From positions 1 to 64,000 of the forward strand of contig QCHT01000001.1 in assembly GCA_003279445.1 (NCBI GenBank): a stretch of 64,000 nt of DNA, written 5' to 3'. The position numbers and the translations under genes were made by a program. A model generated the notes under the pieces. That model made no database searches. It was not told the origin of the DNA and saw only the letters and a list, made by a program, of their open reading frames with translations. Of this stretch, positions 1 through 18,302 are shown in pieces. Numbering within the stretch: the stretch's first letter is position 1; each line of letters starts with the position of its first letter. The stretch is from Prochlorococcus sp. AG-402-G10. Lineage in GTDB: Bacteria; Cyanobacteriota; Cyanobacteriia; PCC-6307; Cyanobiaceae.

Positions 1-1
1 A

Positions 2-40
2 AAGAAAGCACCTGCTAAAACATCAGCTAAACTTGCTTAA
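2..40 (+). CDS. C-terminal end of a Lys/Ala-rich protein (partial)
   Basis: The first bases read in frame as the last 12 residues of a protein, KKAPAKTSAKLA, followed by TAA. The start lies left of the window. The Lys/Ala/Pro composition resembles basic histone-H1-like tails such as the one on the protein at 8000-8518. A hairpin with a T-run follows within 25 bases, which supports a real gene end. Nothing more can be said about function. Confidence 0.55.
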   Translation, partial: KKAPAKTSAKLA

Positions 41-61
41 AGTCAGACCGTACTAGCGGCT

Positions 62-91
62 AGAGAGGTGCAATTCCTCTCTCTGATTTTT
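62..91 (+). terminator. Intrinsic terminator of the left-edge gene
   Basis: A perfect 7-bp stem (AGAGAGG at 62-68 with CCTCTCT at 76-82) with a 7-base loop is followed within 5 bases by a T-rich run. It sits 20 bases after the stop codon of the partial gene at the left edge. Confidence 0.65.
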
Positions 92-339
92 GTGAAGTTG
101 TACAAGAACTATCTGTTAACTACGTTTAGTGATATAGATAGACCTAACAAGGATCAATAGTTTTCGTATAATTTAGTATGGGATAGTAAATGAAGAAGAA
201 TAATTATTTTCAAAAGTGAGATAAGCACAAACAGATCAGTTCACCTAATATTCTTAGCTACTTCCTTCTTTCAAAAGAATTGAAAAATTCAAGTGAGCCT
301 TATAAAGAAAAAATGTGTTAATTTTTCGTATAAAACTTT

Positions 340-870
340 ATGTATTTAAAAAGTCTTGATAACTGCTGTTTGAGAATCGGTTTATATCCACCCTTTGATT
401 ATGATGCAACAAGTGGTGGCGGACCGGCTTTTGTTTGCTTGCAAGAGCAAGCAAGACTTAAACACCTGAGATTTGACTCTAATACATTTTTAATACCTCC
501 TCTTACTTGGAGGAATACAAGGTTCCTGTCCCTCCCAATCCCTCCTGGCCTGAAGATTGAGATGCTTATGGATAAACTTGAAGGAACCTTGGATGTAGCA
601 ACAGGTGAGCTGTCGCTTAATTTTGAGTCGAGGTTTGTTTTTTCTATTTTCTCAATCTTTAGTTTTCCTAATCTTCTTGTCAAGACGTCACTAGTTACTG
701 GGAAAGTAACTAGTAAATACTTTGAGGAGGAAGGTATGGTTGTCAATGGAAACGGTAGGGTTAAGCTTGTAGGCATTACAGTTGTGCCAGCTACAGGTAG
801 TCAATTGCTGGATATTTTTCTTGGCTTACCTAATGAAGCATTGGCAATCCTTAATTGTGAATGCATTTAG
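340..870 (+). CDS. Conserved hypothetical protein, 176 aa
   Basis: A clean ORF with an ATG start. The protein is mixed alpha/beta in character, with a stretch FSIFSIFSFPNLLV near residue 105 that is hydrophobic but is probably not a transmembrane helix. Gly/Pro-rich segments (YPPFDYDATSGGG near residue 17) look like conserved family positions rather than random translation. I do not recognise a named domain. It looks like one of the cytosolic cyanobacterial proteins of unknown function. It stands alone, between the terminator at 62-91 and the decayed gene at 910. Confidence 0.75.
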   Translation: MYLKSLDNCCLRIGLYPPFDYDATSGGGPAFVCLQEQARLKHLRFDSNTFLIPPLTWRNTRFLSLPIPPGLKIEMLMDKLEGTLDVATGELSLNFESRFVFSIFSIFSFPNLLVKTSLVTGKVTSKYFEEEGMVVNGNGRVKLVGITVVPATGSQLLDIFLGLPNEALAILNCECI

Positions 871-909
871 AATGAGGCTTTTGGTATTTGTTTTGTTGCA
901 GCAGATCGT

Positions 910-1152
910 ATGAATACTAACTCGGAAAATTATGTGACAGATCCACTTCCCTAAGCTTTTAAAGAAAATCCCTAGACAGGAATTTAAGACCTCCCTGTAT
1001 ATGATGGAACTGAGAGAGGGTATTGGTTAATTCTTCTAGCCTTTAGTTTGGTTGTTGGAACTTTTCTTGAGACAATGAACCTAAGCTTTGACTTGGTAAG
1101 ACACATAGCCGAACGTATTCTGAATATGAAAAGGTATATTTGTTGGCTTTAA
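910..1152 (+). pseudogene. Decayed small membrane-protein gene (three in-frame stops)
   Basis: One reading frame starting at ATG 910 keeps protein-like sequence to a TAA at 1150, but is broken by stops at 952-954 (TAA), 973-975 (TAG) and 985-987 (TAA). The first block reads MNTNSENYVTDPLP. After the stops it resumes with VYDGTERGYWLILLAF and a hydrophobic helix ending near TFLETMNL. Three stops within 35 bases while both flanks stay in the same frame suggest nonsense decay of an approximately 80-aa single-helix protein. Without a comparison to orthologues, a functional downstream re-start cannot be ruled out. Confidence 0.5.
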
Positions 1153-1169
1153 AAACATTCTGATTTAAA

Positions 1170-1622
1170 TTATTGAATTTCTTTTAAGACTCGGATTGCT
1201 TCCTTGATATGAGCAGGACCATTGAGAAGGTCTTCAAAAATATGACAGATCTTTCCTTCTGCATTAATGATATAACTCACTCTGCCATCAATCATTCCTA
1301 GGAACTTTGGGACTCCAAATGCTTTTCTTAACGAATTCTTTTCATCACAAAGCAATGGGTATTGGAGCTTATGCTTGTTAGAAAAGAGTAGATGGCTTTC
1401 CTCTCCTCCATTACTTACACCGCATATTCTTGCACCTAGAATTTTAAAGAGATCATACTTATCCCGAAAGCCACAAACCTCTACTGTGCAGCCAGGGGTA
1501 TCATCTTTTGGATAAAAGAAAAGGACAAGAGGCTTGCCTGCGAATTCTTTATTGCTTCTTAATTTTCCTGATTGATCCAATAAAGAGAATTCAGGTATTA
1601 AATCGCCTACTTTTAATGCCAT
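1170..1622 (-). CDS. bcp: Peroxiredoxin Q / BCP-type thiol peroxidase
   Basis: A 150-aa thioredoxin-fold peroxidase of the PrxQ/BCP class. The peroxidatic Cys45 sits in YPKDDTPGCTVEVCGFRD, and the resolving Cys50 lies five residues later, the classic atypical two-Cys arrangement. Length is full and the ATG start is followed by the usual LKVGDLIPEF opening. PrxQ proteins reduce hydroperoxides with electrons from thioredoxin; the thioredoxin gene at 56292 could supply a partner. The gene is monocistronic here. Its 3' end faces the remnant at 910-1152. Confidence 0.95.
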   Translation of the reverse strand: MALKVGDLIPEFSLLDQSGKLRSNKEFAGKPLVLFFYPKDDTPGCTVEVCGFRDKYDLFKILGARICGVSNGGEESHLLFSNKHKLQYPLLCDEKNSLRKAFGVPKFLGMIDGRVSYIINAEGKICHIFEDLLNGPAHIKEAIRVLKEIQ

Positions 1623-2194
1623 GAAAAAGAATTAAGTCTGCTTTAGTAAAATAAATTGATTTAGCCCTTAGAGAATTTAGCAAAGGAACTATTCTCCCAC
1701 AGCCATTGTCATCATCTAATAATCTTGAAATAACTCTACGGGAGCTAATACAGCGATTGGGTAAAAACAAACGATAGCGACAAAAGCAGGAAGATTTCCT
1801 AGTGTTGCCTAAAACACATTCATTAATTTTATATATCTAAAACTATCATAATAGCTCCTTGCACAAACTGCGATGGCTTTAATTTATCTTGGAATTATTC
1901 CGGGGCAGAGCCCTCTATCTATATTTAATTGAGAATCAATAGTTCAATTATAAAGCTGTGCAAAAGACCTTTACCTATGTTTCTTAGATTAGGAAGCCTT
2001 CATGTTGACCATACTTTTCCTCCTTTGACTCCTAATGCTTTTCCTAGTAAAGAATTCTAGTAACTTAATTCGTTGAATGAGGTTCTTTTCATTTGGTTTT
2101 TAATCCTCAGATTTTTTCTTAAATATAGGTTGCACTAATTAGATAGCCTAGTTTCTTTCGACTTGATAGTAAAAAGAAGGAGGTGGGCTTGTTT
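1623..2194. other. 570-base intergenic stretch, possible gene remnant
   Basis: There is no complete gene. On the + strand, 1655-1777 is open without an ATG and reads like protein (ends LRELIQRLGKNKR then TAG); the frame continues as QKQEDFLVLPKTHS after the stop. A further short run near 1873-1930 (MALIYLGIIPGQSPLS) is also protein-like. These may be pieces of a decayed gene, but the evidence is weak. The rest is AT-rich without clear signals. Confidence 0.25.
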
Positions 2195-2812
2195 TTAGGT
2201 TCGATTGAATATTATGGAAAAATTGTTTGCAGGCATTTTAATTACCTTGCTTCTTTTAAAGCCAGAACTCTTGGCTATTTCATCTACTGCTTCGAGATTC
2301 CTAATTCCCCAGTGCTTATTGCGACTCTTTAACGATTTATCGAAGATGGCATTGCTTTCAGCTGTATGAATATTCCCCCTTTTGAATGGCCCGTAAAGGA
2401 TTAATGGTGAACCACATTTTAAATACTTCCCTGACTCTTTAAATAAGAATCGCGTGCAATCCCAGTGCGCTATATGGATCATATTGATGCAGACAATGGA
2501 ACTTAGATTGGATATAAATATGTTGGTTAAAGGCCATGGAGTTTTCTCAACACTTAAATCGATTGCTAAGGGCATTTTTTCAGTTAACCTCTCATGCCTG
2601 ATCCATGAATTAATGCTTCTCCTGCAAGATTGATCTGAATCGCTAGTTTGCCAAATAATATTTGGGAATCTTTTCTGAAATGTTATTCCATGCTCTCCAC
2701 TCCCACTTGCTATTTCAAGTGTAATTCCATGTTGTGGCAAGAATTCGTCAAGGACTTCACAAATAACTGCCCGATTTCGAAGTGTTGCAGGAAAGAATAG
2801 TCTCTCGTCCAA
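2195..2812 (-). CDS. DUF938-family SAM methyltransferase-like protein
   Basis: A 205-aa protein matching the DUF938 family (Rossmann-type SAM-dependent methyltransferase fold). It shows the family pattern in order: RNRAVICEVLDEFLP, the SAM-binding EIASGSGEHG loop near residue 33, the CINMIHIAHWDCT block near 108, LILYGPFKRGNIHTAESNA near 137 and WGIRNLEAVDEIA near 168. The substrate is unknown for the family. The start is TTG at 2812, giving a full-length N-terminus; no better ATG lies upstream. It stands alone on its strand. Confidence 0.85.
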   Translation of the reverse strand: MDERLFFPATLRNRAVICEVLDEFLPQHGITLEIASGSGEHGITFQKRFPNIIWQTSDSDQSCRRSINSWIRHERLTEKMPLAIDLSVEKTPWPLTNIFISNLSSIVCINMIHIAHWDCTRFLFKESGKYLKCGSPLILYGPFKRGNIHTAESNAIFDKSLKSRNKHWGIRNLEAVDEIAKSSGFKRSKVIKMPANNFSIIFNRT

Positions 2813-2888
2813 TGAAGACTCAAAGGTTTTGTTTATTAACCTATTTTGTCTGATCCTGTTGTTTTGTGAAGACTCTTAGAATGACCAT

Positions 2889-3104
2889 TTAATCTTGTGT
2901 CAGAGGATTTTGCTTTCTTAAGGCTTCATCCAATTGTTCAATATTTGGCAGCTGCCAGGTCCCAATAGCCTCACCAAGTAATTGATTTATTGCTTCGTCA
3001 GGGCAATCAGTTTCTTCTTGAAGAAAATGACAGGCGCTATCAATGATGTCAAAGAATTCTTCAATATAGGCTTTATGCTCATCTATGAATTCGAAATCGG
3101 TCAC
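2889..3104 (-). CDS. Small cysteine-pair protein (C-x8-C family), member 1
   Basis: An acidic helical protein of 71 aa from the GTG at 3104; a TTG at 3113 would add three residues. It carries the block ACHFLQEETDC followed by a hydrophobic helix (INQLLGEAIG). The same arrangement (Cys, eight residues, then Thr-x-Cys) occurs in the small proteins at 23488 and 31560, so I regard these as paralogues. I do not recognise a named family. The two cysteines could form a disulphide or bind a metal, which is inference only. Confidence 0.7.
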   Translation of the reverse strand: MTDFEFIDEHKAYIEEFFDIIDSACHFLQEETDCPDEAINQLLGEAIGTWQLPNIEQLDEALRKQNPLTQD

Positions 3105-3248
3105 TAGCAGCAAAATCAGCTTGGTATAAATCTACCTACAAGATAATTAAAAAAGCTTAGAATGATTAAGAGTTTAGTTAATACTCGCATCGACAATAAA
3201 GCTTTTATTTTGGAGCTGTCATTATAAATAAAGCCTTATATTGCTTTT

Positions 3249-3551
3249 ATGTGGGTAAGTATTGATCTGTCTCTTGTGCCTGTTGGAGCAGGTGTTTCCC
3301 TCTCTCCATATATAAGAGCTTGTAAGGAGATTATTGAAAAGAATGGGTTAGAACATGAATTGGGCCCAAATGGCACAGCAATTGAAGGGGACTGGGAAAG
3401 TGTATTTAAGTGCGTTAAAGAATGCCATCATGAAGTTCATCGATTGGGTGTAAGTCGTATTTATACAACTTTGAAAGTAAATAGCCGGACTGATCGTTTT
3501 CAATCTTTCAGAGAAAAAGTGCCTAGCGTTACTTCTAATGTCAAAAAATAA
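3249..3551 (+). CDS. MTH1187 / thiamine-binding (DUF77) family protein
   Basis: A 100-aa ferredoxin-like-fold protein of the MTH1187/YkoF-like family (DUF77, thiamine_BP). Recognisable parts are VSIDLSLVPVGAGVSLSPYI at the N-terminus, LGPNGTAIEGDWESVF in the middle, and GVSRIYTTLKVNSRTD near the end. Characterised members bind thiamine or small ligands as oligomers. The cellular role here is unknown. It is full-length with an ATG start and has no operon partner. Confidence 0.85.
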   Translation: MWVSIDLSLVPVGAGVSLSPYIRACKEIIEKNGLEHELGPNGTAIEGDWESVFKCVKECHHEVHRLGVSRIYTTLKVNSRTDRFQSFREKVPSVTSNVKK

Positions 3552-3679
3552 GGGCTCTTATTTGTTTGAGATTGATTCAGTTTCATATAGTTGATACTCA
3601 ATAAGAAGTTGTTTGATTAAATCTATTGACACTTTTAATTAACCGTTTAGAAAGAATCTAAGAATTAGATTTTTTTCAA

Positions 3680-3823
3680 TTGCCTACCCATGATGAAATT
3701 GAAGCTATTAAGGAACATCTTAAAGATGTAGACAATGCTCAAGAAGCAATTTTAGAAGCAATGTTTGATGATCTTAGGAGTAATTATGAAACAGATTTGT
3801 CTCAGAAGAAGTTAGATAGATAA
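3680..3823 (+). CDS. Small acidic helical protein, 47 aa (TTG start)
   Basis: An open frame from TTG 3680 to TAA 3821-3823 encodes a highly charged helical peptide (PTHDEIEAIKEHLKDV, then AILEAMFDDLRSN). Composition and the amphipathic pattern look coding. The start codon is uncertain because no ATG is present in frame, and I see no clear ribosome binding site. No family is recognised. Confidence 0.45.
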   Translation: MPTHDEIEAIKEHLKDVDNAQEAILEAMFDDLRSNYETDLSQKKLDR

Positions 3824-3926
3824 AATCCCGAGTTTTATTGGTTATACTTTTTTTAAGTTGAAATTACTAAATTCACAGCGTTTTTCTTTATAAATTATCC
3901 TCTGAACTTCCTAATAGCATTTTTTG

Positions 3927-4358
3927 TTAGAACTCCTCAATCATTGTTTTTACCCTCCGGCTTTGTTTTTTCTCTCCATGCTTTCTCTTAGAATTAACTC
4001 TCTTCCTTTGTGAGGATTTCGTAGGCTTGGTAGTTTTTCTTGCTTTAGGAGGCGGCTCTAACGCTTTTTCTAGGAGTATCCCTAGTCTCATTAGGGCTAA
4101 TTTTCGATTTTTATATTGAGTTCTGTTCTCTTGAGTGATAACTGTAATCGTGGTATTTACTATTTGGTTGCTAAGTTGTTTTGTTATTCGATGCTTTTGA
4201 TATGAAGTTAAAGCCTTGGACTTTTCAATATTGAAAGAGAGATTTACTCTAGTATCTGTCTTGTTGATGTTTTGGCCACCCGATCCTGAAGAGCGTGAAA
4301 AACGCCAATGAAGTTCATTGGATGGAATTACTAAAGCAGGATTGACAATTAAATCCAT
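3927..4358 (-). CDS. arfB: ArfB/YaeJ-type peptidyl-tRNA hydrolase
   Basis: A 143-aa class-I release-factor-like protein. The catalytic GGQ lies in WRFSRSSGSGGQNINKTDTR near residue 27, and the C-terminal tail is strongly basic (KARKTTKPTKSSQRKRV and similar), which in this family inserts into the empty mRNA channel. ArfB proteins release peptides from stalled, non-stop ribosomes. The ATG start gives the standard N-terminus. It begins head-to-head with the gene at 4364, with only 5 bases between the two start codons. Confidence 0.9.
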   Translation of the reverse strand: MDLIVNPALVIPSNELHWRFSRSSGSGGQNINKTDTRVNLSFNIEKSKALTSYQKHRITKQLSNQIVNTTITVITQENRTQYKNRKLALMRLGILLEKALEPPPKARKTTKPTKSSQRKRVNSKRKHGEKKQSRRVKTMIEEF

Positions 4359-4363
4359 TTTTC

Positions 4364-4660
4364 ATGAGACATTTTTTAGATCTTTCGAATTGTGAACCAG
4401 TTAATGACTTGTGGGCAGAGTTTTCAGAAACTTTAGGACTAGAGAAAGCTAGTAAGGCCGTAAGACAAGCGATTGATTTACAAGCAATGAATGGTGAAGA
4501 AGGCACTTTGCCAATCTTATTTATAGAGACTTGTGGTGTAGGCTTGACTACCTTTAGTACTTTAAGAGAGCAGACAGGTATATCTCTTTTTGGTTCAAAT
4601 AAAGTCCTAATTTTTAGTAAAAAGAAGAACTCTTTCCAAGTTCTTCATGAGGTTAAATGA
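4364..4660 (+). CDS. Hypothetical protein, 98 aa
   Basis: The ORF begins ATG 4364 with a soluble, helix-rich N-terminal half (LWAEFSETLGLEKASKAVRQ) and a beta-like C-terminal half ending in FQVLHEVK. The divergent ArfB start codon is only 5 bases away, so a leader with a ribosome binding site would have to lie inside arfB. The annotated start may be wrong, or the mRNA may be nearly leaderless. I do not recognise the family. Confidence 0.6.
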   Translation: MRHFLDLSNCEPVNDLWAEFSETLGLEKASKAVRQAIDLQAMNGEEGTLPILFIETCGVGLTTFSTLREQTGISLFGSNKVLIFSKKKNSFQVLHEVK

Positions 4661-4696
4661 ACCTAAAAGGAAGGAAGTCAGAACAATTCTAATGAT

Positions 4697-5098
4697 TTAA
4701 CCTAGCCCCGTAAAGAGTTCTTTGTGAACGACAAGAGTTTCGTAAGGAGTAGTCCCTGCTTCAGGACTTAAAGGAATACCATCAATGTTTTGAGCAGTAC
4801 TGCAAATGAGATCACCATCCCAATGCACATCATGCGCACTTATTGATTTGGACCATAGGCGGATTGCTGCGAAATGTTCAGGAACTTGAACCCCAATTTT
4901 TCTACATATCTCACAAAGAGTAGATAAAACAGGAGGCTTTGATTTGATCCTCAGATCTCTAATAATGCTTGGTTGTGAAAAAACACCTATATATCTTATG
5001 TATTCGATTAACTCTTGATCATCCGAAGATAATCTGGCACTTTCCATTGCTTTTTCAAAGTGTTCAACAGCGAGAATCGGTCTTAGTTGAATTTGCAT
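4697..5098 (-). CDS. Conserved hypothetical protein, 133 aa
   Basis: An ATG-started soluble protein with an N-terminal block IQLRPILAVEHFEKAMESAR, a Cys pair in LCEICRKIG and a C-terminal region HDVHWDGDLICSTAQNI. No transmembrane helix or signal is seen. It converges with the gene at 4364, with 36 bases between stop codons. I cannot assign a domain. Confidence 0.7.
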   Translation of the reverse strand: MQIQLRPILAVEHFEKAMESARLSSDDQELIEYIRYIGVFSQPSIIRDLRIKSKPPVLSTLCEICRKIGVQVPEHFAAIRLWSKSISAHDVHWDGDLICSTAQNIDGIPLSPEAGTTPYETLVVHKELFTGLG

Positions 5099-5298
5099 TT
5101 GTTTAAACCCGAATAACTTTGGTGAAGTTGAATTTATTAGTAGGAAAGATGAGCTAATTCAATGCAATGTTGCAATCCCTTCTATTAAAGATGTATAGGA
5201 TTTTGCAATGAATATGAAAAATCAAGTAGTGCTTGAGATCTTATTTATAGCAGGTTAGAATAGTTATGTTAAATCTCTAAGGCATCAAGTTTGCGGTC

Positions 5299-5427
5299 AT
5301 GTTCGCGCTTACTCTATCTCAGATGGGATTAAGCCCTCTAGGCATATTATTACTTTTTATCATGGGGTTATTCTTTTTCATCTCTTTTTTTCTCATAAGT
5401 AAGAATATGGATGTTGAGGCTTGTTAA
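5299..5427 (+). CDS. Single-helix membrane mini-protein, 42 aa
   Basis: ATG 5299 to TAA 5425-5427. A short N-terminus (FALTLSQMGLSPLG) precedes one long hydrophobic helix (ILLLFIMGLFFFISFFLI) and a short polar tail. Size and layout are typical of thylakoid or plasma-membrane mini-proteins of picocyanobacteria. It opens a run of three short reading frames between 5299 and 5620. No family is recognised. Confidence 0.5.
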   Translation: MFALTLSQMGLSPLGILLLFIMGLFFFISFFLISKNMDVEAC

Positions 5428-5510
5428 GAGTTCTCTATTCAAAGCCATTTAGGCGAAAAGATGGAACAGTTGAATATCGCAACGAAAATGGATGGAACTT
5501 AATTCGTTAA
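5421..5510 (+). CDS. Possible 29-aa basic mini-protein (TTG start)
   Basis: The frame TTG 5421 to TAA 5508-5510 overlaps the preceding mini-gene's stop and the following one's start. The peptide (YSKPFRRKDGTVEYRNENGW near its centre) has a protein-like charge pattern rather than random composition. It could equally be the end of a decayed longer gene. Low confidence. Confidence 0.25.
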   Translation: MLRVLYSKPFRRKDGTVEYRNENGWNLIR

Positions 5511-5620
5511 CTGTTGGCAACCCCATATCACTTTTAATAGAAAGGCTAGTTTATTTAGCCATTGGCATTTTTTTTATTGTTGCTTTGTATACAGGTATTC
5601 AGAGAGGGAGAAAAGATTGA
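5492..5620 (+). CDS. Single-helix membrane mini-protein, 42 aa
   Basis: ATG 5492 to TGA 5618-5620. Residues MELNSLTVGNP lead into one helix (LVYLAIGIFFIVALYTGI) and a basic tail (QRGRKD), so the topology is N-out/C-in by the positive-inside rule. It overlaps the short frame at 5421-5510 by 19 bases. The next gene is convergent and ends 30 bases away. Confidence 0.5.
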   Translation: MELNSLTVGNPISLLIERLVYLAIGIFFIVALYTGIQRGRKD

Positions 5621-5649
5621 AGTAATTAAGATTTTGGAATCAAAAAGAA

Positions 5650-6261
5650 TTATCCAAACGGGACTCTACCTGTAAGAGGACTTATAAAAAGATATTCCAT
5701 AAAGATTCCAGTGATTGCAAGTGGTAGTACCCAAATAGTTATAAAACGAACACCAAAGAATCTCATTGAATTAGAACCATCAATTGCTTTTTTTGTTGAA
5801 GTGTAGATTGTCTCTGATTTTTTAATTGTGTAGTCCTGCTCTTGATAAGGTTTTACTGGGTTAGATGATCTTATTAAGTTACTAAATGACGTTATTAAAA
5901 GTATAGGTAAAGCCCAAACAGCCATGAACCTTGGACCAATCCAATACCTTGGATGTGGAAAGATGTATTGCTTATTTGTACTTTCCTTTGGGAACCCTTC
6001 CTCTATAGCTTTGAAGATTTCATCGACATTAGGTTCTTTTTTTAGATAAGTTTTTTGGGTATTCAGGCTTCTCTCGATGTTTGATGTTGCTTTGTCTGCA
6101 AGCTCAGGAACTTTCTTCTTTAATTCTTTTTCTTTTTTGACCATAGTTGATTCTGTATCAAAGGCCTTCTCTACTAGTAATGAATTTCCTTCTACCTTTA
6201 AATAATTTGTTGATTCAATGATTTTTTTACAATCAAGATTGTTATCTTCTTTTGATTCCAT
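5650..6261 (-). CDS. Two-helix membrane protein with a duplicated motif, 203 aa
   Basis: The ATG at 6261 is preferred over TTG 6282. A charged N-terminal half rich in Lys and Glu is followed by two membrane helices, each introduced by the same motif: RYWIGPRFMAVWALPI (near residue 115) and RFFGVRFITIWVLPL (near residue 180). This internal repeat (R-x-W/F-G-x-R-F-x-x-x-W-x-L-P) looks like a duplicated helix unit. The domain is not recognised. The orphan gene converges with the mini-protein run to its left. Confidence 0.65.
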   Translation of the reverse strand: MESKEDNNLDCKKIIESTNYLKVEGNSLLVEKAFDTESTMVKKEKELKKKVPELADKATSNIERSLNTQKTYLKKEPNVDEIFKAIEEGFPKESTNKQYIFPHPRYWIGPRFMAVWALPILLITSFSNLIRSSNPVKPYQEQDYTIKKSETIYTSTKKAIDGSNSMRFFGVRFITIWVLPLAITGIFMEYLFISPLTGRVPFG

Positions 6262-6422
6262 TTGATAAGTATTAATAAACAACTTTATAGCGATGGCTCT
6301 CTGTTCAGCTGCTTAATGATTCATTGGTGGGTATCAATATACCCATGATTGAGTAAATCTTTGACAATTACAATGTGTTATTTGTGCATATATTGAATAA
6401 GCCAATATCTCTTTTGACTGAA

Positions 6423-6596
6423 ATGTTATTAAGTTTAGGTGCTCTTGCTTCTTCTGGGCTGCGAGTGAACAGCACTATTGTAAATATAATTCTTTCAATT
6501 GCAATTCCTTTAGTTATAGGACCCCTACTTTTCTTTGTTTTTCGTTCTCAAGGTGGTTCTTTGACTTCGAGAAAAGTTTCCCTCAGAGAAGTTTGA
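6423..6596 (+). CDS. Small membrane protein, 57 aa
   Basis: From ATG 6423 the protein has a mildly hydrophobic N-terminus (LLSLGALASSGLRVNS), a strong helix (IILSIAIPLVIGPLLFFVF) and a basic tail. A GTG at 6375 would extend it by 16 residues. Probably a single-span membrane protein of unknown role. Confidence 0.5.
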   Translation: MLLSLGALASSGLRVNSTIVNIILSIAIPLVIGPLLFFVFRSQGGSLTSRKVSLREV

Positions 6597-6810
6597 ACAT
6601 AAATCGTTTTCTCTTAAGTCAATACTCTAAGAAAATAACCTGCTCTTTTATAGGTTAATTTAGAAAAATGGATATTTTAAAATCCTGATATTTCTTAAGA
6701 GTTATAATAATCTGTATGATCAATAAGACTTTTTATAAGGAGTTGAGAAAAAACCGCAATTGATTAATGCGATAACTGCTAACTTTTAAAAAGATCAAAA
6801 CTACATCGTC

Positions 6811-7290
6811 ATGCTGGTTAACATTACGGACACCATCGTTGAAACAGCAATGGGAGAAAAGAAGAGTCTTGGTGAGTACACTGGGAAAGTTTTGCTGATT
6901 GTTAATGTGGCGAGCCGTTGTGGTAATACACCACAGTATTCAGGCTTGCAGAAACTCCAAGATAAATATAAGGCTCAGGGATTTGCTATTCTTGGATTCC
7001 CCTGCAATGATTTTGGAAAGCAAGAACCAGGATCTCTTGATGAAATTAAAGAGTTTTGCTCATTAAAATATGGAGCTAATTTTGAACTCTTCAATAAGGT
7101 GCATGCAAAAGGTTCAACTACTGAACCTTATACAACACTCAATAAGACTGAGCCTGTTGGAGATGTAAGCTGGAATTTTGAGAAGTTCTTAGTAGGTAAG
7201 GATGGGAACGTCATTGCACGTTTTCAACCAGGTGTTCAGCCCTCGGATGAGGAACTTGTCGCAGCAATTGAGGTCGCTTTGGCTTCATGA
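6811..7290 (+). CDS. gpx: Glutathione-peroxidase-like thiol peroxidase
   Basis: A 159-aa GPx-fold protein. The peroxidatic residue is Cys37 (NVASRCGNTPQY), Trp121-Asn122 of the active-site tetrad are present (VSWNFEKF), and Cys83 fits the resolving cysteine of thioredoxin-dependent GPx. The tetrad Gln is replaced: where the family usually reads FPCNQFG this protein reads FPCNDFG, with Asp67. It probably detoxifies lipid or alkyl hydroperoxides using thioredoxin. ATG start, full length, monocistronic. Confidence 0.9.
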   Translation: MLVNITDTIVETAMGEKKSLGEYTGKVLLIVNVASRCGNTPQYSGLQKLQDKYKAQGFAILGFPCNDFGKQEPGSLDEIKEFCSLKYGANFELFNKVHAKGSTTEPYTTLNKTEPVGDVSWNFEKFLVGKDGNVIARFQPGVQPSDEELVAAIEVALAS

Positions 7291-7300
7291 AAATGAAAAT

Positions 7301-7882
7301 ATGACTTTTAAAATTGAGGAACTTGATTGGCAATACCTTTTACCTAATCTTACGAAATTTTCATTTCATTTGGACTCAACTTTTTAGAACTTTAGATAGT
7401 ATTGACTTGGCATATTTCAAGCCGCCTTTTATTAGAGTCATATCGAGGATTGACTTCTCATCTTCTTCATTTTGATCTAAGTCACCTATTGTCAAACGTT
7501 TTTGGAATAGTTATAGCTAGAAACTTATTGAAGGAATTAGAACTTACTAGCGCATATCTTTTTCTTGTTCTTGTCTAATTTCTAATCCCTTATATTTTTT
7601 CCTTCAATGGTTAGTAGACATATGTCTCTTAAAAAACTAGTGTCTCCTTTAATAGGGTTTAGTGGAATTCTTTACGGTATAGATTCTTTTATTTTGTTGA
7701 GTTCAATTTATTGGAAAAGAGAATTCTTAAATTTTCATCTTGGCTTAACTCGTAAGTCTAAAGTATCAAATGTAATGTTTGTTTTAACTGGTTTGGGTCT
7801 TTGTTTTTTCCTTTTTATAAAGATCAGTTTGTTGTCACACCTCACAGGCATAATTTCAGGATGCTTTCTTTTTCTTTTTTAA
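7301..7882 (+). pseudogene. Rhomboid-family intramembrane protease, disrupted
   Basis: Three blocks in different frames line up as one rhomboid protein. Block 1 (7301-7387) reads LDWQYLLPNLTKFSFHLDST, then stops appear, with family-like residues (LGIFQAAFY) continuing in the same frame. Block 2 (7435-7578) reads YRGLTSHLLHFDLSHLLSNV, which contains the rhomboid H-x-x-x-N motif. Block 3 is the open frame 7607-7882 (91 aa) with the catalytic Ser in GFSGILYG (Ser19 of that frame) and the catalytic His in SHLTGIISG (His78). Several stops and frame changes separate the blocks, so no intact protease can be made. The 3' fragment alone could still be translated. Confidence 0.75.
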
Positions 7883-7936
7883 GCATAATAAAAAATTAGT
7901 TCTATTTTTAATACCACAAAAAAACTTTTAAATCTA

Positions 7937-7977
7937 AAAAGCGGGTTGAGAGATCTTTGATCTCCTAACCCGCTTTT
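7937..7977. terminator. Strong bidirectional terminator hairpin
   Basis: The stem pairs AAAAGCGGGTT (from 7937) with AACCCGCTTTT (to 7977), extended inward by imperfect GAGAGATC/GATCTCCT pairing. A-tract and T-tract flanks make it a terminator on both strands. It separates the rhomboid remnant from the convergent gene at 8000. Confidence 0.8.
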
Positions 7978-7999
7978 AGAACTGACTATTTGAATTGTC

Positions 8000-8518
8000 T
8001 TACTTCGAAGCTTGAGCTGGTGGGGTTGTTGATTTAGGAGCACTCTTTGCACGCCTCGCACGTCTAGCCGGCCTGGCTGTAGTAGCTTTTTTATTAGACG
8101 ATGGCTTTGCTGCAACACTTTTCTTTGAGCTTGCCTTCTTAACAGTAGAAGCCTTGGTCTTTGTGCTTTTTGCCTTTGGTTTTACCTTGGTTGCTTTCTT
8201 GTCTGATGCCGGCTTAGCAGCTTTTGTTCCCTTCCGAGTCCGATGGCTTAATATTAGTGCCCATTCATCGGCACTAATATTTGCTGGCTTGTTGCCATGA
8301 GCTTCAGAAACTTTGGCAGCCTTTTCGATATCTTTAATTAGATTGCTCCAAGAAGAAGCATATCGCTTGTCTGACTGTGACTTTGCGCCACTCTCAACTA
8401 AGGATTCTACTACTCCTGCAGCAGTGATTTTTTTACGTCGCCGGTTGAAGATTTCCTTTTGAAGTTGGGCAATTAAGGCATCTGCCTTTGCACTGAGCTT
8501 GATGGTTAATTGAGACAT
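8000..8518 (-). CDS. Histone-H1-like protein with a ribbon-helix-helix-like N-terminus
   Basis: 172 aa. Residues 1-45 (a beta strand LTIKLSA, then two helices ending VVESLVESG) look like a ribbon-helix-helix DNA-binding fold. A middle helical part (SSWSNLIKDIEKAAKV, ISADEWALILSHR) follows. From about residue 95 the chain is a repetitive Lys/Ala/Ser/Pro tail like eukaryotic H1 or bacterial HctA-like proteins. It is probably a nucleoid-associated protein; this is inference from composition. ATG start, and a strong hairpin lies directly downstream. Confidence 0.75.
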   Translation of the reverse strand: MSQLTIKLSAKADALIAQLQKEIFNRRRKKITAAGVVESLVESGAKSQSDKRYASSWSNLIKDIEKAAKVSEAHGNKPANISADEWALILSHRTRKGTKAAKPASDKKATKVKPKAKSTKTKASTVKKASSKKSVAAKPSSNKKATTARPARRARRAKSAPKSTTPPAQASK

Positions 8519-8704
8519 CGATAAAAATTACCTATATTAATATCTACCACAAAAAGGGGCATTACTCAACTAAAGCTCTATTTTTAGGAGACAATAGTGC
8601 TGCTAATGAAAACCTAATAAGAATCGATAGGTTTAATGTTCCACAGGAATTTCAATGTAGACATACATTTTGGCCTTGCTAGTAATGATAATTACCAGAC
8701 TTAC

Positions 8705-8902
8705 TTAGGCGGCTCTTTTCTGCGACTGTTGGAGGAGTTTCCTTGCCCTTTTACGTTTAACACTCTTGTTCATTTCCTCCGTTAACTTGATATATCTGTG
8801 CATAGCATCCCTGTTGGCAAAACCTTTTTCTGCTTTTCTTTTTTCTTCCTGCTTGACTTGTAGCAGGAGCTCTGTCATTGATCTTAGTATGGGGAAAACC
8901 AT
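8705..8902 (-). CDS. Small basic coiled-coil-like protein, 65 aa
   Basis: Alternate ATG starts at 8902 and 8878 are possible; the second gives 57 aa beginning MTELLLQVKQEEKRKAEKGF. The sequence is nearly all charged helix with a basic C-terminus (KRKRARKLLQQSQKRAA), which suggests nucleic-acid or ribosome association. No family is recognised. Confidence 0.55.
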   Translation of the reverse strand: MVFPILRSMTELLLQVKQEEKRKAEKGFANRDAMHRYIKLTEEMNKSVKRKRARKLLQQSQKRAA

Positions 8903-9074
8903 TAGCTCTTTTTTGAAATCTGTCTATTTTGAGATTTTAGAAGCAATTCTTCATTCTTGACTCTATTTTGAACTGAAGTTATGTACGTCAGGTCATAAGT
9001 AGACAAGCCTTGGATATTAGGATCGAAAAGGTTGCTTGAATTTTTCCTATGCCTAGGTTGTTGATACATCAAAT

Positions 9075-9203
9075 TCATTTTTTTTTAATTCTAATGCTTA
9101 TTCTTTGTTCTTCAAGCCATTCTTCTGATATCACTGACTGTTGTTCTCTCTTCCTGATCCTTCCTCCTTTGTCCATCGGATTTTGAGCAGTTAGTGGGCC
9201 CAT
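9075..9203 (-). CDS. Small basic protein, 42 aa
   Basis: ATG at 9203, TGA at 9075-9077. The sequence (MGPLTAQNPMDKGGRIRKRE, then EEWLEEQRISIRIKKK) has a coherent charged pattern with a helix and a basic tail. The frame lies in a stretch that otherwise holds no gene. I do not recognise it. Confidence 0.4.
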   Translation of the reverse strand: MGPLTAQNPMDKGGRIRKREQQSVISEEWLEEQRISIRIKKK

Positions 9204-9273
9204 CCCTATGCATCGAAAAATGTAACGGTTTCTTTCCCTGATAGGAAGTTCAGAAACTCAGATATATCCGTTT

Positions 9274-9399
9274 ATGACTTTTGAAAACTTCTTCGAATTA
9301 ATATTTGAGCAAATCATTGAAACTTGTAAACAACATTCTTTAATAATTAGAATCAAGCCTATTGCTCTCTTGTTACAGCATTACTTTTTTATAGAATGA
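9274..9399 (+). CDS. Possible 41-aa helical mini-protein
   Basis: ATG 9274 to TGA 9397-9399. The peptide starts TFENFFELIFEQIIETCKQH and continues hydrophobic/basic. The amphipathic pattern is compatible with a gene, but AT-rich random sequence can give the same composition. I see nothing else in 9204-9456. Confidence 0.25.
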   Translation: MTFENFFELIFEQIIETCKQHSLIIRIKPIALLLQHYFFIE

Positions 9400-9456
9400 G
9401 ACTATTTAGCAACTAGTTCATACTGATTCTATATGACATACCGATCATCAGAAAGA

Positions 9457-9660
9457 CTATTCAGGGAAAACTTCCTTATACAATGAAAAAGCCCCGGCAA
9501 CAGATATGACAGCCCCAAGTGAATAAGTTATGAATTTACCTTTCTCGCCTGCTTCGTAGACGTTCGTTACTACTAGCCCATAATCAATAATTGAGCTGAG
9601 TACAAACCACGCTATTGCCCATCCGCAAGCATATAGAAGAAGACTAAGGGAGTGGTTCAT
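9457..9660 (-). CDS. Two-helix small membrane protein, 67 aa
   Basis: An ATG-started protein with two predicted spans: LLLYACGWAIAWFVLSSII and the later YSLGAVISVAGAFSLY, joined by a short loop (VTNVYEAGEKGKF). The C-terminus is KEVFPE. Orphan; the family is not recognised. Confidence 0.6.
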   Translation of the reverse strand: MNHSLSLLLYACGWAIAWFVLSSIIDYGLVVTNVYEAGEKGKFITYSLGAVISVAGAFSLYKEVFPE

Positions 9661-10049
9661 CGTGACAACATATTTGTTTTGGTTATAAATAGTTCATGTT
9701 TTAAGTAAAAGTTCTATTACGTTTAGAGTTCTTTATGAGACTTAATTAAAAGTCATAAAAATACCTATAATCTCTAGTTAGAGCCTCATTTTAGTTATTA
9801 ATACCCACAGATCATTAACTCCATTGATGAGGAACCCTTCTTGCTAGATTTAAGTGTAAATACTCTCTTTTTGCACAGTTTTCTGAGCCTTGAGCTATAG
9901 GTTTGCCTGCTTTCACATCTAGGTTCTGAGAAAAATACCTTAAGTTAACCATTCCTGGTTCTAAATTAGAAAAAACTTTCCTCCTCTAGCCCAACAGTTT
10001 GAAAAACGTTCTTCTCTCTGGCCTTAATGGTCAGGCTTTGGCAGTGAAG

Positions 10050-11150
10050 ATGACTGACATACCAAGCATGTCAGCTATTACCAGTGTCGTTCCAACTCGA
10101 TGCTTTACACGTCAAACACTTACCTCTCTGGCGTATCTGTGCCAGTCAATTTTCATACAGGCAATTGTAGTTGTAATTGGTTTTTCTATACCTCTCAAAT
10201 TATCAATGGTTTTGGTATGGATTGTATATGCAATGATTTCAGGAACTACTGCTATGGGTTTTTGGGTTATTGCACATGAGTGTGGTCATGGTGCTTTCTC
10301 AAATAATCGAAGGTTAGAGACAGTCATTGGATACCTTTTGCACACGATTCTTTTAGTGCCTTACTTCTCCTGGCAAAGGTCCCATTCAATCCATCATAGA
10401 TTTACTAATCACATAACAGATGGTGAAACACATGTTCCTTTAGTGATTGGAGCTAATGGCATTAGTGAACAGGCTGGAGGTGATGAAGAAATAGCCTATT
10501 CTCAATCTATTGGGAAGACAACTTTTGGTATTTTGCAGCTTATTCTTCACTTATTGCTTGGGTGGCCTGCCTATTTAATTGCGGGTAAAACTGGTGGACC
10601 TAAGTATGGACTCTCGAATCACTTTTGGCCAAGGGCACCTTTTTCTAAGACAATGTGGCCTGGAAACTGGCCTAAGAAAGTTTGGATGTCAGATTTTGGG
10701 ATAGGAATTTTTTTATGTATATTATTTTATTGGGGATGGAATTTTGGCATCATGTCAGTTATGACTATTTACTTTGCACCTCTGCTAGTAGTTAATTGCT
10801 GGTTGGTTGTCTACACATGGTTGCATCACACTGATACTGATGTCCCACATTTATCTGGCTCAGACTTTTCTTTTATGAGGGGAGCCTTTCTTTCAATTGA
10901 CCGACCTTATGGGAAAATTTTGAATTTTCTTCATCATCATATCGGCTCCACTCATGTGATTCATCATATAGCACCTTCAGTCCCTCATTATCATGCAAAG
11001 GAGGCAACTCGAGCGATTAAGGAGGCTTTCCCAAAGATTTATCTTTTCAACCCCACTCCTATACATAGAGCTCTGTGGATGATCGCAAGTAATTGTGTTG
11101 CTGTTAAAGCTGAGAAAGGAAGCTTTAGATATCTTTGGCAAAAGCCTTAG
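10050..11150 (+). CDS. Membrane fatty-acid desaturase (DesA/FAD2-like)
   Basis: A di-iron acyl-lipid desaturase. The three histidine boxes are present: HECGH (residues 93-97 counted from TTG 9999), HSIHH a little further on (about 129-133), and HVIHH near residue 317, each flanked by long hydrophobic segments. Flanking text (GHGAFSNNRRLETVIGYLLH, VPYFSWQRSH, VPHYHAKEA) is closest to the Delta12/omega-3 plant- and cyanobacterial-type branch, not DesC. It introduces double bonds into membrane-lipid acyl chains using ferredoxin. I prefer ATG 10050; TTG 9999 would add 17 residues without obvious similarity. A second desaturase lies at 12874. Confidence 0.9.
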   Translation: MTDIPSMSAITSVVPTRCFTRQTLTSLAYLCQSIFIQAIVVVIGFSIPLKLSMVLVWIVYAMISGTTAMGFWVIAHECGHGAFSNNRRLETVIGYLLHTILLVPYFSWQRSHSIHHRFTNHITDGETHVPLVIGANGISEQAGGDEEIAYSQSIGKTTFGILQLILHLLLGWPAYLIAGKTGGPKYGLSNHFWPRAPFSKTMWPGNWPKKVWMSDFGIGIFLCILFYWGWNFGIMSVMTIYFAPLLVVNCWLVVYTWLHHTDTDVPHLSGSDFSFMRGAFLSIDRPYGKILNFLHHHIGSTHVIHHIAPSVPHYHAKEATRAIKEAFPKIYLFNPTPIHRALWMIASNCVAVKAEKGSFRYLWQKP

Positions 11151-11331
11151 ATAGCTTCTCCTTGAGTCATCGCTTCTTTATAGATTCTAAGGAAGTAAAA
11201 AATCTGTTCATTTTTAATTGAACTAATTTTTTGGACAAGATTGTTTTATAACGAAAGGAAGGAATATTTGACTATAAGGATTGAAATCAGTTCTCTAGCT
11301 GTTAGAAAAAGCTTAGTAATTTTGAACATGA

Positions 11332-11781
11332 ATGACTGTTAGCACTTATCTCAAGGATCAAAAAAGAGATGTTAGCTCTAAATTTCATATAGTTAGAGAT
11401 CAATTAGAATTAACTTATGAGTTAATTCAAGAACAAGTTTTTTCAAAATTTCATAGCACTGAGAAGAGTCCTACAGCTATGAAACTCAATGCTGGTAAAA
11501 CTCCTTCTAAGTCTTCAGATGAATCTTTCCTTATAGCGTTGAGGGGAACCATTGCAACTTTTTTAAGCTCTTCAGATTTAGCAGGAGTTTTAGAGAGGAA
11601 TTGGAAGACCATGATTGAAAGACGGATTGACTGGACTCGTGGAAGATTTACTGGAACAGTCGAGAAAATAATTTTAACGAGTGGTGTTATTCGTGAAAAG
11701 ACATTTCTAACAGCGAAGGGCAACAAGATTATTATTAAGCGCTCAGAGCTAGGGATGTTTATTAGATTATTTGAAGCTTGA
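11332..11781 (+). CDS. Hypothetical basic protein, 149 aa
   Basis: A soluble, Lys/Ser-rich protein from ATG 11332. The first third is helical (KFHIVRDQLELTYELIQEQV), a low-complexity linker with many Lys and Ser follows, and the C-terminal third (RRIDWTRGRFTGTVEKIILT) appears folded. It lies between the two desaturases. No domain is recognised. Confidence 0.65.
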   Translation: MTVSTYLKDQKRDVSSKFHIVRDQLELTYELIQEQVFSKFHSTEKSPTAMKLNAGKTPSKSSDESFLIALRGTIATFLSSSDLAGVLERNWKTMIERRIDWTRGRFTGTVEKIILTSGVIREKTFLTAKGNKIIIKRSELGMFIRLFEA

Positions 11782-11895
11782 TTTTAGAAAATTCATTAAT
11801 ATGATTTTATTTTGAGGCGGATAACTTGGTTGCTAAAACGTTAATGTCGGCCTTTAAATTTTCAAAGCCTAAAATTCTAATAGCTTTTAGATTCA

Positions 11896-12288
11896 ATGAG
11901 AAAACTTAGTTGGGATGATTTTGACTCTTCTTTAAATCAGATTACTTATGATTGTAGGTATAAGAAGTTCTCAGGGGTATATGGTTTTCCTAGGGGAGGA
12001 CTTTGCCTGTCAGTTGCCATAAGCCATTTATTGACTATTCCATTTCTCAGAGAGCCTATACCTAACTCATTAGTAGTAGATGATGTTTATGAGACAGGGT
12101 TGACTTTAAATAAAATCAAAAGGCTTTCTGGGGTTACAGCATTTGTTTGGTTTAGCAAAGTTGAACCAATCTGGTGGAATGCTGTAGAAGTATGTGATGC
12201 TTCAGAGTGGCTTGTTTTCCCCTGGGAGAACCCTGTGCTAGCAGAGCAAGATAGAGAGTCTTTTCAACTTAGGCGAGGTAAATTGTAA
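11896..12288 (+). CDS. Phosphoribosyltransferase-like protein
   Basis: A 130-aa type-I PRTase-like protein. It has a YGFPRGGLCLSVAISHLL segment near residue 29 and the PRPP-binding signature SLVVDDVYETGLTL near residue 58. It is shorter than typical adenine/orotate PRTases, and the C-terminal hood is reduced to VEVCDASEWLVFPWENP, which resembles the xanthine-PRT-like small group. The substrate is unknown. ATG start and no operon partner. Confidence 0.8.
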   Translation: MRKLSWDDFDSSLNQITYDCRYKKFSGVYGFPRGGLCLSVAISHLLTIPFLREPIPNSLVVDDVYETGLTLNKIKRLSGVTAFVWFSKVEPIWWNAVEVCDASEWLVFPWENPVLAEQDRESFQLRRGKL

Positions 12289-12443
12289 TAGTAAAATTAA
12301 TCAAAGAAGCTAATGTTCTAGCTTCGCTATGTGAACTCTCTCAGAAATGGTAGTAACACGAGATATAGAATAGATACGACCAAGTTTGATTGAATGTAGA
12401 TTCTTTCTTGTTAATCGATTAAATTATAGGAAAACTTCTTCAC

Positions 12444-12692
12444 ATGATTCTTTTAAAGATAACCAATGCTTCTGAAGTAGTAAAAGCTAAGGCAGGCAAG
12501 CTGTTCGAGAAAATGACACCTGATAGGATTGATCAGAAGTTAGTGGAAGACCAAGTCATCCAGTCAATGATTGAACAACTTACATTAGAAGGTCTTAAAG
12601 GGGAAATTTCTAGTGTGAAAGGGTTAGAACTTCAGGGGACTTCACTTTTGACCAAGAGTAGTTTCGTTATTAAAGAGACTAAAACATTTTAG
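12444..12692 (+). CDS. Hypothetical small protein, 82 aa
   Basis: An ATG-started soluble protein with amphipathic helix (NASEVVKAKAGKLFEKM), a second helix (VEDQVIQSMIEQLTLEGL) and a beta-like C-terminus (LQGTSLLTKSSFVIKE). The regular fold pattern and good codon use support a real gene. It resembles conserved cyanobacterial small proteins of unknown function. Confidence 0.65.
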   Translation: MILLKITNASEVVKAKAGKLFEKMTPDRIDQKLVEDQVIQSMIEQLTLEGLKGEISSVKGLELQGTSLLTKSSFVIKETKTF

Positions 12693-12873
12693 ATGTTGAT
12701 TCAACGTTAGCTTTTTTGATGGCCAGAAAACATTGATTTTTAATATCTTTATTGAGTTTTTTCATCTTTAAAGAGGTGTTGATGAGAGATTGATAACTTT
12801 GGATCTTCCCTGTTGGCCGGGAAAAATAAAATGTAGGAAAGAATTGACCTTTAGACTTTTTTAAGGCAATTGA

Positions 12874-14025
12874 ATGCGATACTTATTAGGCAGCTGGAAG
12901 AACTTGGTAGAACTTACAAAGAATCAAGCAATTAAAAGGTCTGATTTTGTTATTGCTCCATATTTGCATAGGAGTAATGCTAAGGCATCCTGGCAAGTTT
13001 TAATAACAATTCTACCAATTGCAGGACTTTGGATTTTAATAGAATCTATATCTAAATCAGGGTTATCCGATGCTCTAAAGATCATGCAAATTGCACCTTC
13101 TCTGGTGCTTTTGACTTTATTTTCATCACGAACATTCTCTTTAATGCACGATTGTGGACATGGATCCCTTTTTCGAACCCGTTGGCTTAACAGATTAGTT
13201 GGTTTTTTCCTTGGAGTAATAAATGCAATTCCGCAACACCCTTGGTCAAGGGATCATGCCTTTCACCATAGACATAATGGTGATTGGGAGATATACCGTG
13301 GCCCGGTTGATGTACTTACTCTCGAGGATTACCAAGAATTGTCGAGAGTAAATAAGTTTTGGTATTCAGTTAGTCGTCATTGGTTGATGTTATTTCCTGG
13401 AGGCTTTTTTTACCTTGTTATTAAGCCTCGGGTTGCTCTTTTAATGGCAATAACACATTTCTTCTTGTCACTATTAACTGAATTTGTACATAGCTGCATT
13501 AAAAGAGACTTTATGAATCTATTTAGATTTAAAACTAGATTCAAGGCCTATCACACGGGTTACGGCGATACACTCCCTGAGAATATGGATTTATTTTTTA
13601 ACAATTTACTTGTTATAACCTCTTGGGTCTTGATGAGTCGATGGCTTGGATTTGCCTTATTCCTAACTTGCTATTCTATAGTTATGACTGCCTCAGCAGC
13701 AATATTCATTTGTATCTTTTTTGTTCAGCACAACTTTAAAGGTTCATATGCAAATGCAACTGCTCAATGGAGTTCTCTGCGTGGTGCAATTGATGGTAGT
13801 AGTAATTTGAATTTACCTGGGATCTTAAACTGGTTTTTGGCAGACATCTCCTATCACAGTATTCATCACTTATGTGATCGCATCCCTAACTATAATTTGC
13901 GTGATTGTCATAATCGCAATAAGCACTTACTTTTAAATGCAAGATATCTAAGAATTAGAGATATTCCAGGGTGTTTCAAGTATATTCTTTGGGACAGGAA
14001 AGCTCAGAAGCTTTCAACTACATAA
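12874..14025 (+). CDS. Second membrane fatty-acid desaturase (DesA-like)
   Basis: A 383-aa di-iron desaturase-family protein with boxes HDCGH (about residue 90), HAFHH (about 129) and HSIHH (about 328), between long hydrophobic stretches. The tail PNYNLRDCHN matches the DesA-type pattern after the third box (IPSYNLR in characterised Delta12 enzymes). It belongs to the same superfamily as the protein at 10050 but to a clearly different branch. Likely substrate: membrane-lipid acyl chains; a carotenoid hydroxylase/ketolase role is less likely given the DesA-type tail. ATG start, single gene. Confidence 0.85.
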   Translation: MRYLLGSWKNLVELTKNQAIKRSDFVIAPYLHRSNAKASWQVLITILPIAGLWILIESISKSGLSDALKIMQIAPSLVLLTLFSSRTFSLMHDCGHGSLFRTRWLNRLVGFFLGVINAIPQHPWSRDHAFHHRHNGDWEIYRGPVDVLTLEDYQELSRVNKFWYSVSRHWLMLFPGGFFYLVIKPRVALLMAITHFFLSLLTEFVHSCIKRDFMNLFRFKTRFKAYHTGYGDTLPENMDLFFNNLLVITSWVLMSRWLGFALFLTCYSIVMTASAAIFICIFFVQHNFKGSYANATAQWSSLRGAIDGSSNLNLPGILNWFLADISYHSIHHLCDRIPNYNLRDCHNRNKHLLLNARYLRIRDIPGCFKYILWDRKAQKLSTT

Positions 14026-14169
14026 TCTTCTTTTCTAACAGTTTTTTCTTGCCTTGCTTTATAGAGATAGAAAAACATACATGCTCAATGAGTCAACTCA
14101 AAAATGTCTAAAATTTAGAATCTCCTTATTGCTTATTTGTAAGGGGATTGTTTTATCCATTTAGTTCTT

Positions 14170-14433
14170 GTGAAGAAACTTTTATTTAATCTTTCTATAG
14201 CTTTTGCGACATTTCTCATAGTTGTTTTTTCTCTTGCTATAAGGGTAGATGCCTATTCTCAGGATCAATATCAGGAATGTGTTCTTGCAGTTAAAGCTAA
14301 TCCTGTAGTTGTTGGTATTCCCGAGGTGGCCCTTGAATCTTTCTGTGATTGTGCTCTAAGCGCAATTATAGATGAAGGTAATAATGATGAAAACTCTGCT
14401 AAGCAATGTGCCAAAGAGACCTTAAATAATTAG
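14170..14433 (+). CDS. Small secreted cysteine-containing protein, 87 aa
   Basis: GTG start at 14170. An N-terminal signal sequence (two Lys, then FNLSIAFATFLIVVFSLAI, cleavage likely after RVDA) is followed by a mature part of about 60 residues with four Cys (in ECVLAV, SFCDCA, KQCAKE). The Cys pattern suggests two disulphides in the periplasm or lumen. Family not recognised. Confidence 0.65.
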   Translation: MKKLLFNLSIAFATFLIVVFSLAIRVDAYSQDQYQECVLAVKANPVVVGIPEVALESFCDCALSAIIDEGNNDENSAKQCAKETLNN

Positions 14434-14996
14434 CTAATGGCAGCGTTTACTCATGAATTTTGAAATTTGTACTGTAATTGCTAATTCTATTAAAAGAACA
14501 CAGTTCATTTCTATGTCGAAAACTTCTAAGAAAAGTGCAGGCTTATTGAAAAGAATGGCGAAGATTTCCCGTTAAATTGCAAATATCTTGCTCTAGTCTG
14601 TTAGATCTTTGTTTAGAGTTCTTTCCTGAGTCCTTTTAAAATGGGTTTTCCACACTGTTCTTTATGTATTTCTTTAGCAGGACTCTCAATTTCTTTGGCT
14701 GTATCAAGAGTTACAATGATCTACAAACTCAAAAGTCTTACCACTTCAGTTTTGTAAATATCAAGAAAACTTCTTACTTTAGATTAACCAAAAAATAACT
14801 TATGAGAAGCATTCCATTTTTCTTAAGTTAGAAGCAACTGAGAAATAAAACTAAATTTTGTTGATATTTCTAATTTTAGGAATACTCATGTAGTCGTAGG
14901 AAATGATGAAAGCAAGTTTAGTTTTGATTTAACGGTCTTTTTTTAGATTAATTGCTAGACAATATGACATACACTAATTTTTCTGCTTAGGAAGTT
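14434..14996. other. 560-base intergenic stretch with two tiny open frames
   Basis: No clear gene. On the + strand, 14513-14575 encodes a 20-residue Lys-rich peptide (MSKTSKKSAGLLKRMAKISR). On the - strand, 14613-14720 is open without ATG and reads protein-like (KEIESPAKEIHKEQCGKPIL), perhaps a fragment of a decayed gene. The remainder is AT-rich, with nothing recognisable. Confidence 0.25.
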
Positions 14997-15335
14997 ATGC
15001 CTTTTATTAATGTTCGAACTTCTATTTCTAGTATCGAAAACCCAGAACTGCTCCTTCAAGAACTCTCTAGGGAATTGGCTGTCATGACTGGTAAACCAGA
15101 AAAATATGTTATGGCCTTATTAGAAACAGATGTCCCAATGCTATTTTCTGGTTCCAAAGACCCTTCTTGTTATATAGAAATTAAATCGATAGGTGCAATT
15201 AAGCCTTCTGATATGTCAGAAGTTTTTTGCAAGATGGTTTCTAGTAAGACGGGCATTCCCAGTAGTCGTATTTATATTAGATTTGAAGATATACCAGCAA
15301 AAGATTGGGGGTGGGACGGAAGGACTTTTGGGTGA
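14997..15335 (+). CDS. MIF-family tautomerase
   Basis: A 112-aa member of the macrophage migration inhibitory factor family. The catalytic N-terminal Pro2 follows the initiator Met, and the conserved Lys33 lies in MTGKPEKYVM. The segment IKSIGAIKPSD and the C-terminal WGWDGRTFG match the family. Members act as trimers with keto-enol tautomerase activity; MIF homologues are known from Prochlorococcus, with unclear biological role. ATG start. An imperfect hairpin (AAACCTAAAAATA near 15337 pairing with TATTTTTGGTTT) and a T-run lie just downstream as a possible terminator. Confidence 0.9.
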   Translation: MPFINVRTSISSIENPELLLQELSRELAVMTGKPEKYVMALLETDVPMLFSGSKDPSCYIEIKSIGAIKPSDMSEVFCKMVSSKTGIPSSRIYIRFEDIPAKDWGWDGRTFG

Positions 15336-15617
15336 AAAAACCTAAAAATAGTTTAGATTATTTTTGGTTTGAAATTAATTTTTTTTTACTTAGAGGATAA
15401 GGCGTAGTTCTTTTTCTGAATTTTAACTTTGTGATTTCTTCATTCAAGGCAGAAATCTAATGAGCATATTTTAGTAAGTTCATAATGGGACACAAAAGGT
15501 AACGTTTATATTAAATGAGATGCTTCAGCTCTCAATAAAGGTCTGAAAAAGGCTTTCTTTAAAGATTCAGATATTCATAAGCTATGAGGTGATTATCAAA
15601 TTTATTCTTACCGATTG

Positions 15618-16925: not shown

Positions 16926-17118
16926 TATTGAATAACTACTTTCACCATGCTGATGAAAGTAGCTAGAACTTTCAACTCATATGACAAATAAAAACCTGTG
17001 ATTACTTATTAAAATAGAAATAGGATATAGAGAAATCTTAAGGTCTTTATAAAAACAGACTAATGAATCTCTATAAAAGTCTGTATGGTTTAACTTAGAA
17101 GTATTTCAAGTTGAATTG

Positions 17119-18233: not shown

Positions 18234-18302
18234 AACGCTTGAGACTCCTCCTCTTTTTGATATAAGCCGGGCAGAAATTGTTGATAATTGGTGTATTGAC
18301 TA

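Follow-up and report, generated by a model that had tools for sequence, protein, structure and literature searches.

The segment at 7301-7882 of the window (the whole 64,000-nucleotide stretch of Prochlorococcus DNA that was analysed) is almost certainly a rhomboid protease pseudogene, non-functional by its sequence, and the reading that includes its loss of selective constraint has a probability of about 90%. It is what is left of a native rhomboid gene of around 195 codons beside the glutathione peroxidase gene and is eroding without constraint through frame-shifting indels, stops, and deletions. The host genome (G000 in the following) comprises 1.62 Mb in 37 contigs and is around 90% complete. 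The relevant features are these:

7301..7882, forward strand: rhomboid protease (PF01694) pseudogene, whole extent from the homologous start ATG to the homologous stop
7301..7387, forward strand: block 1, N-terminal part (MTFKIEELDWQYLLPN...), ended by an in-frame TAG (translation and orthologue alignment)
7402..7578, forward strand: block 2 in the other frame, with the conserved HxxxxHxxxN (SHLLHFDLSHLLSN; PF01694 at 16.5 bits, alignment)
7607..7882, forward strand: block 3 (from about 7583), the 91-aa open reading frame, which covers the C-terminal half and holds the serine motif GFSG and the histidine motif SHLTG (PF01694 at 28 bits)
6811..7290, forward strand: glutathione peroxidase gene (GSHPx), intact upstream neighbour that serves as anchor of the slot and as selection control (PF00255 at 118.5 bits)
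7933..7980, no strand assigned: strong hairpin that separates the pseudogene from the convergent gene (-27.4 kcal/mol, z -8.4)
8000..8518, reverse strand: gene for a basic protein of 172 aa, convergent downstream neighbour (no Pfam match)

Structure and family assignment of the pseudogene

The sequence-only reading had described three blocks of a rhomboid with stops between them, and translation, Pfam, and a six-frame search find these blocks as described, distributed over two frames. The middle one (around 7402-7578) reads TSHLLHFDLSHLLSN, while the last one (around 7583-7882) contains GFSGILYG and SHLTGIISG, and at least 4 frame-changing indels in addition to the stops leave no single continuous frame for the six-helix core. 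The read-through, with its blocks joined by X, scores 40 bits against the Pfam rhomboid profile (E 5.8e-10), and both it and the 91-aa frame alone (28 bits) exceed the curated cut-off of 22.6 bits for PF01694. The same two pieces were recovered when all six frames of the entire genome were searched independently, and alignment with rhomboids of related Prochlorococcus, as the earlier reading had proposed, showed 54% identity to an intact relative over 192 residues (E 1.4e-50). The match to the rhomboid family is far beyond chance. With the rhomboid intramembrane serine proteases of PF01694, for which E. coli GlpG is the model, the segment shares the HxxxxHxxxN, GFSG serine, and SHxxG histidine motifs, and its GFSG and SHLTG align with the family-invariant catalytic residues S177 and H236; unlike these proteases, it lacks a continuous frame, as expected of a pseudogene. 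No relatives of solved structure were detected by sequence at E values of up to 1, and none of the eight papers found to contain both "rhomboid" and "Prochlorococcus" has either word in its title or abstract.

Among NCBIfam models, the intact orthologue matches rhombosortase (TIGR03902) best, with scores of 47.4 for this orthologue, 32.4 for the 249-aa rhomboid described below, and 16.4 for the 91-aa frame. All of these are under the equivalog cut-off of 84 bits, and an identity as rhombosortase was rejected. No GlyGly-CTERM proteins that could be its substrates were found in G000, and the best such match in the genus (in G013) is a chance hit that overlaps a Der-like GTPase gene.

The same slot in related genomes

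We compared 60 relatives, the close ones being Prochlorococcus single-cell genomes such as AG-436-M02 (G011) and AG-363-B11 (G009). An intact rhomboid gene of 195-206 aa, the syntenic counterpart of 7301-7882, lies directly behind the same peroxidase gene in G009, G011, G002, G004, G008, and G010, all of the same genus. This slot is bounded by the glutathione peroxidase gene and the basic-protein gene, and G003, G007, G009, and G011 share the surrounding gene order for 10 kb or more. A maximum-likelihood tree places the read-through with the copies of G009 and G011 (100/98 and 98/90) and as sister to the intact copy of G009 (support 98/90), at the end of a branch of 0.9 substitutions per site compared to 0.2 for G009 and 0.25 for G011. 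No examined relative encodes an intact gene that consists of the 91-aa frame alone.

In both of the lineages nearest to the window, the rhomboid slot is broken as well. G003, with a peroxidase gene 98.7% identical, has lost most of the rhomboid's 3' half including the catalytic-serine block, and G007 (peroxidase 94% identical) retains around 270 bp of the rhomboid; the lesions of G000, G003, and G007 are mostly different from each other. No rhomboid was detectable behind the peroxidase gene of G005, G001, and G012, where this gene itself is present.

Programmed frameshifting that would yield a full protease from the blocks has nothing in its favour beyond the readable blocks, and its probability is close to nil: at least 4 frame changes would be required, mostly not common to the sister genomes, and the intact orthologues use one frame. 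Errors of sequencing or single-cell amplification in an intact gene have in their favour that amplified assemblies can carry errors and that the close relatives are single-cell genomes, so that the genome of the window probably is too. Yet decay that is common to several genomes cannot be explained by sequencing error, and the slot is broken in two other genomes by mostly other lesions that include large deletions; furthermore, its substitutions show no codon-position bias, and the neighbouring genes have long open frames with low omega. As the main cause, error is therefore refuted and extremely improbable.

The genes around the slot have features of their own. The protein encoded at 8000-8518 (reverse strand) is rich in Lys, Ala, Ser, and Pro, resembles histone H1, and has no Pfam or NCBIfam match; its gene adjoins the rhomboid slot in several relatives. 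The hairpin at 7933-7980, a stem with an A-run on its 5' side and a T-run on its 3' side, is likely a bidirectional terminator; its core sequence is also present in G003, and it is absent from the list of the consensus scan. No RNA families were found in positions 1-20000. On the other side, 5650-6282 (reverse strand) encodes a protein of 210 aa that evolves fast, has two C-terminal segments resembling each other (RYWIGPRFMAVWALP and MRFFGVRFITIWVLP) and no Pfam match over the cut-off, is 48-65% identical to its counterparts in several relatives (mostly higher for its neighbours) and has a two-frame match in G003.

Selection on the slot

Between G000 and G003, the rhomboid slot shows 25/18/16 mismatches at codon positions 1/2/3 (both halves summed) compared to 2/0/12 for the peroxidase gene (Fisher p 9e-5), and the intact rhomboids of G009 and G011 differ at 46/25/76 (p 0.002 against the slot). 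Omega gives the same picture: for G000-G003 it is 0.94 in the 5' part and 0.79 in the 3' part of the slot versus 0.044 in the peroxidase gene, and for the intact G009/G011 pair it is 0.29 and 0.16. Purifying selection has thus been lost in the slot (omega 0.79-0.94 vs 0.04 in the neighbouring gene), and the claim of a rhomboid in decay is borne out by the syntenic intact orthologues, the broken sister genes, and the neutral-looking substitutions.

The sequence-only reading had also pointed to a 91-aa frame at 7607, which is present in the list of open reading frames (7607..7882) and corresponds to the 3' end of the pseudogene, and had considered a residual product conceivable. The corresponding alternative, a shortened membrane protein kept as a pseudoprotease or regulator, could draw on the facts that the frame is open, retains GFSG and SHLTG, and passes the Pfam cut-off alone. 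However, in G003, the nearest relative, this frame has been destroyed, and omega is around 0.8 in the part still shared. Of 19 covered positions that are invariant in the family, the frame has lost 3, namely S226, P229, and F240 (numbered by the 249-aa form), and the near-invariant G of IYGK is gone as well; by alignment, it also lacks the helices that precede the serine helix on the N-terminal side. Because of the absent codon-position bias, the omega of around 0.8, and the lost invariant positions, residual function is unlikely and a kept shortened protein is a very improbable reading; the 91-aa frame is most likely a chance remnant without any function of its own.

An intact zinc-ribbon rhomboid elsewhere in the genome

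The six-frame search of G000 found a sole intact rhomboid, a protein of 249 aa encoded on contig C9. A weak match on C5 (25%) was rejected because it is not a rhomboid but, by eye, a sulfotransferase-like frame. The 249-aa form shares its rhomboid domain (47 bits) with the read-through, to which it is 38% identical, and differs from the pseudogene by being intact, variably located, and horizontally transferred, as well as by an N-terminal extension that resembles a zinc ribbon (PF08271 at 22 bits, under the cut-off of 29). It occurs in one copy per genome, groups in a single clade (100/99) with its homologues from seven further genomes, and is under purifying selection (omega 0.18-0.37 between genomes). 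The copy of AG-439-E13 (G024; L121:5455-6205) is split by one frameshift, which is either early decay or an assembly error. Zinc-ribbon-like frames that stand alone are widespread in the family, including a small one in G000 that resembles this N-terminus (C6:76162-76254), and may have supplied the N-terminus that is fused here.

The genes around the 249-aa form differ between most carriers. Its neighbours in G000 include dTDP-glucose dehydratase (identified by eye from the sequence) and nucleotidyltransferase genes, and those of other carriers, with frames also read by eye, include serine-recombinase-like and restriction-modification-like genes. The only recurring neighbour is a frame of around 137 aa beside the 249-aa form of four carriers, convergent or near to it and 62-85% identical (L092:6609-7022, reverse strand, on C9 of G000), possibly a travelling partner of this rhomboid. 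Between G000 and G005, dS of the 249-aa form is 0.22, but five genes of the window slot show at least 1.6 or saturation, which shows horizontal transfer. For G000 and G007, by contrast, its dS of 0.16 is no different from that of core genes (0.12-0.29) and fits vertical descent from their ancestor, which probably already carried it. No relative was found on phages or viral contigs using single-protein patterns that reach close relatives.

Distribution of the two rhomboid forms

Across a sample of 300 genomes of the family, the 249-aa form has 8 carriers, none of which (0/8) encodes an intact second rhomboid of the other form, and G000, G007, and G107 contain remnants of it. Around 59 of 85 non-carriers in the same genera encode the other form (Fisher p 2e-4 against 0/8), a denominator obtained by manual counting in a single table in which 32 genomes without a match are not listed; with incompleteness allowed for, the chance of 0/8 is about 7e-4. 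All of these genomes are related rather than phylogenetically independent, so that the p-values are indicative only, and the window's own genus alone gives p 0.085. The near-complete genomes G012 (100% complete), G066, and G112 have neither form, which means that the gene can be dispensed with even where nothing replaces it. The native form is missing from about half of one genus, and rhomboids are patchy across the family. G107 (AG-363-P19), of a different genus, combines an intact 249-aa form on C8 with a decayed other form (L099, C10:49448-50058) whose position is not clearly syntenic, and no 249-aa form was seen in the 82% complete assembly of G003.

Displacement by the acquired homologue is, in our assessment, the best account of why the native gene was lost, and a reasonably probable one. 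The ancestor of a small clade would have gained the 249-aa zinc-ribbon rhomboid, now on C9, by horizontal transfer, which would have made the native copy redundant, and its descendants would then have lost this copy by neutral decay, each in its own way. The process resembles known xenologous gene displacement followed by pseudogenisation in that an acquired homologue and a decaying native copy are found in the same genomes. The support is correlational, and the genomes with neither form, G003 without the 249-aa form, and the doubtful synteny of the remnant in G107 speak against displacement.

Simple streamlining shares the pseudogene reading and competes with this last step alone: the native rhomboid would be dispensable and its loss unrelated to the 249-aa form. 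The patchiness of rhomboids, with G012, G066, and G112 lacking a match of this kind and about half of one genus lacking the native form, makes this a serious contender, while the 0/8 against around 59/85 and the second coincidence of an intact 249-aa form with a remnant in another genus (G107) argue against it; on balance, we regard it as possible but somewhat doubtful. A further idea, which we consider rather unlikely, is that a mobile rhomboid with a zinc ribbon has repeatedly taken the place of the native one in different Prochlorococcus lineages and that the two forms exclude each other.

Implications

Ordinary gene loss is a well-known kind of event, and the value of this case lies in its unusually readable history and in the correction of an automatic annotation that would show a 91-aa hypothetical membrane protein. 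The slot offers a clean example of gene loss caught in the act, set in the streamlined genome of a free-living organism, and the gene that has probably replaced the lost one has been identified. If repeated replacement and exclusivity were true, they would mean that the two forms share a substrate or that keeping both is costly, instead of mere redundancy, and exclusivity would point to a shared membrane substrate of the two rhomboids in Prochlorococcus.
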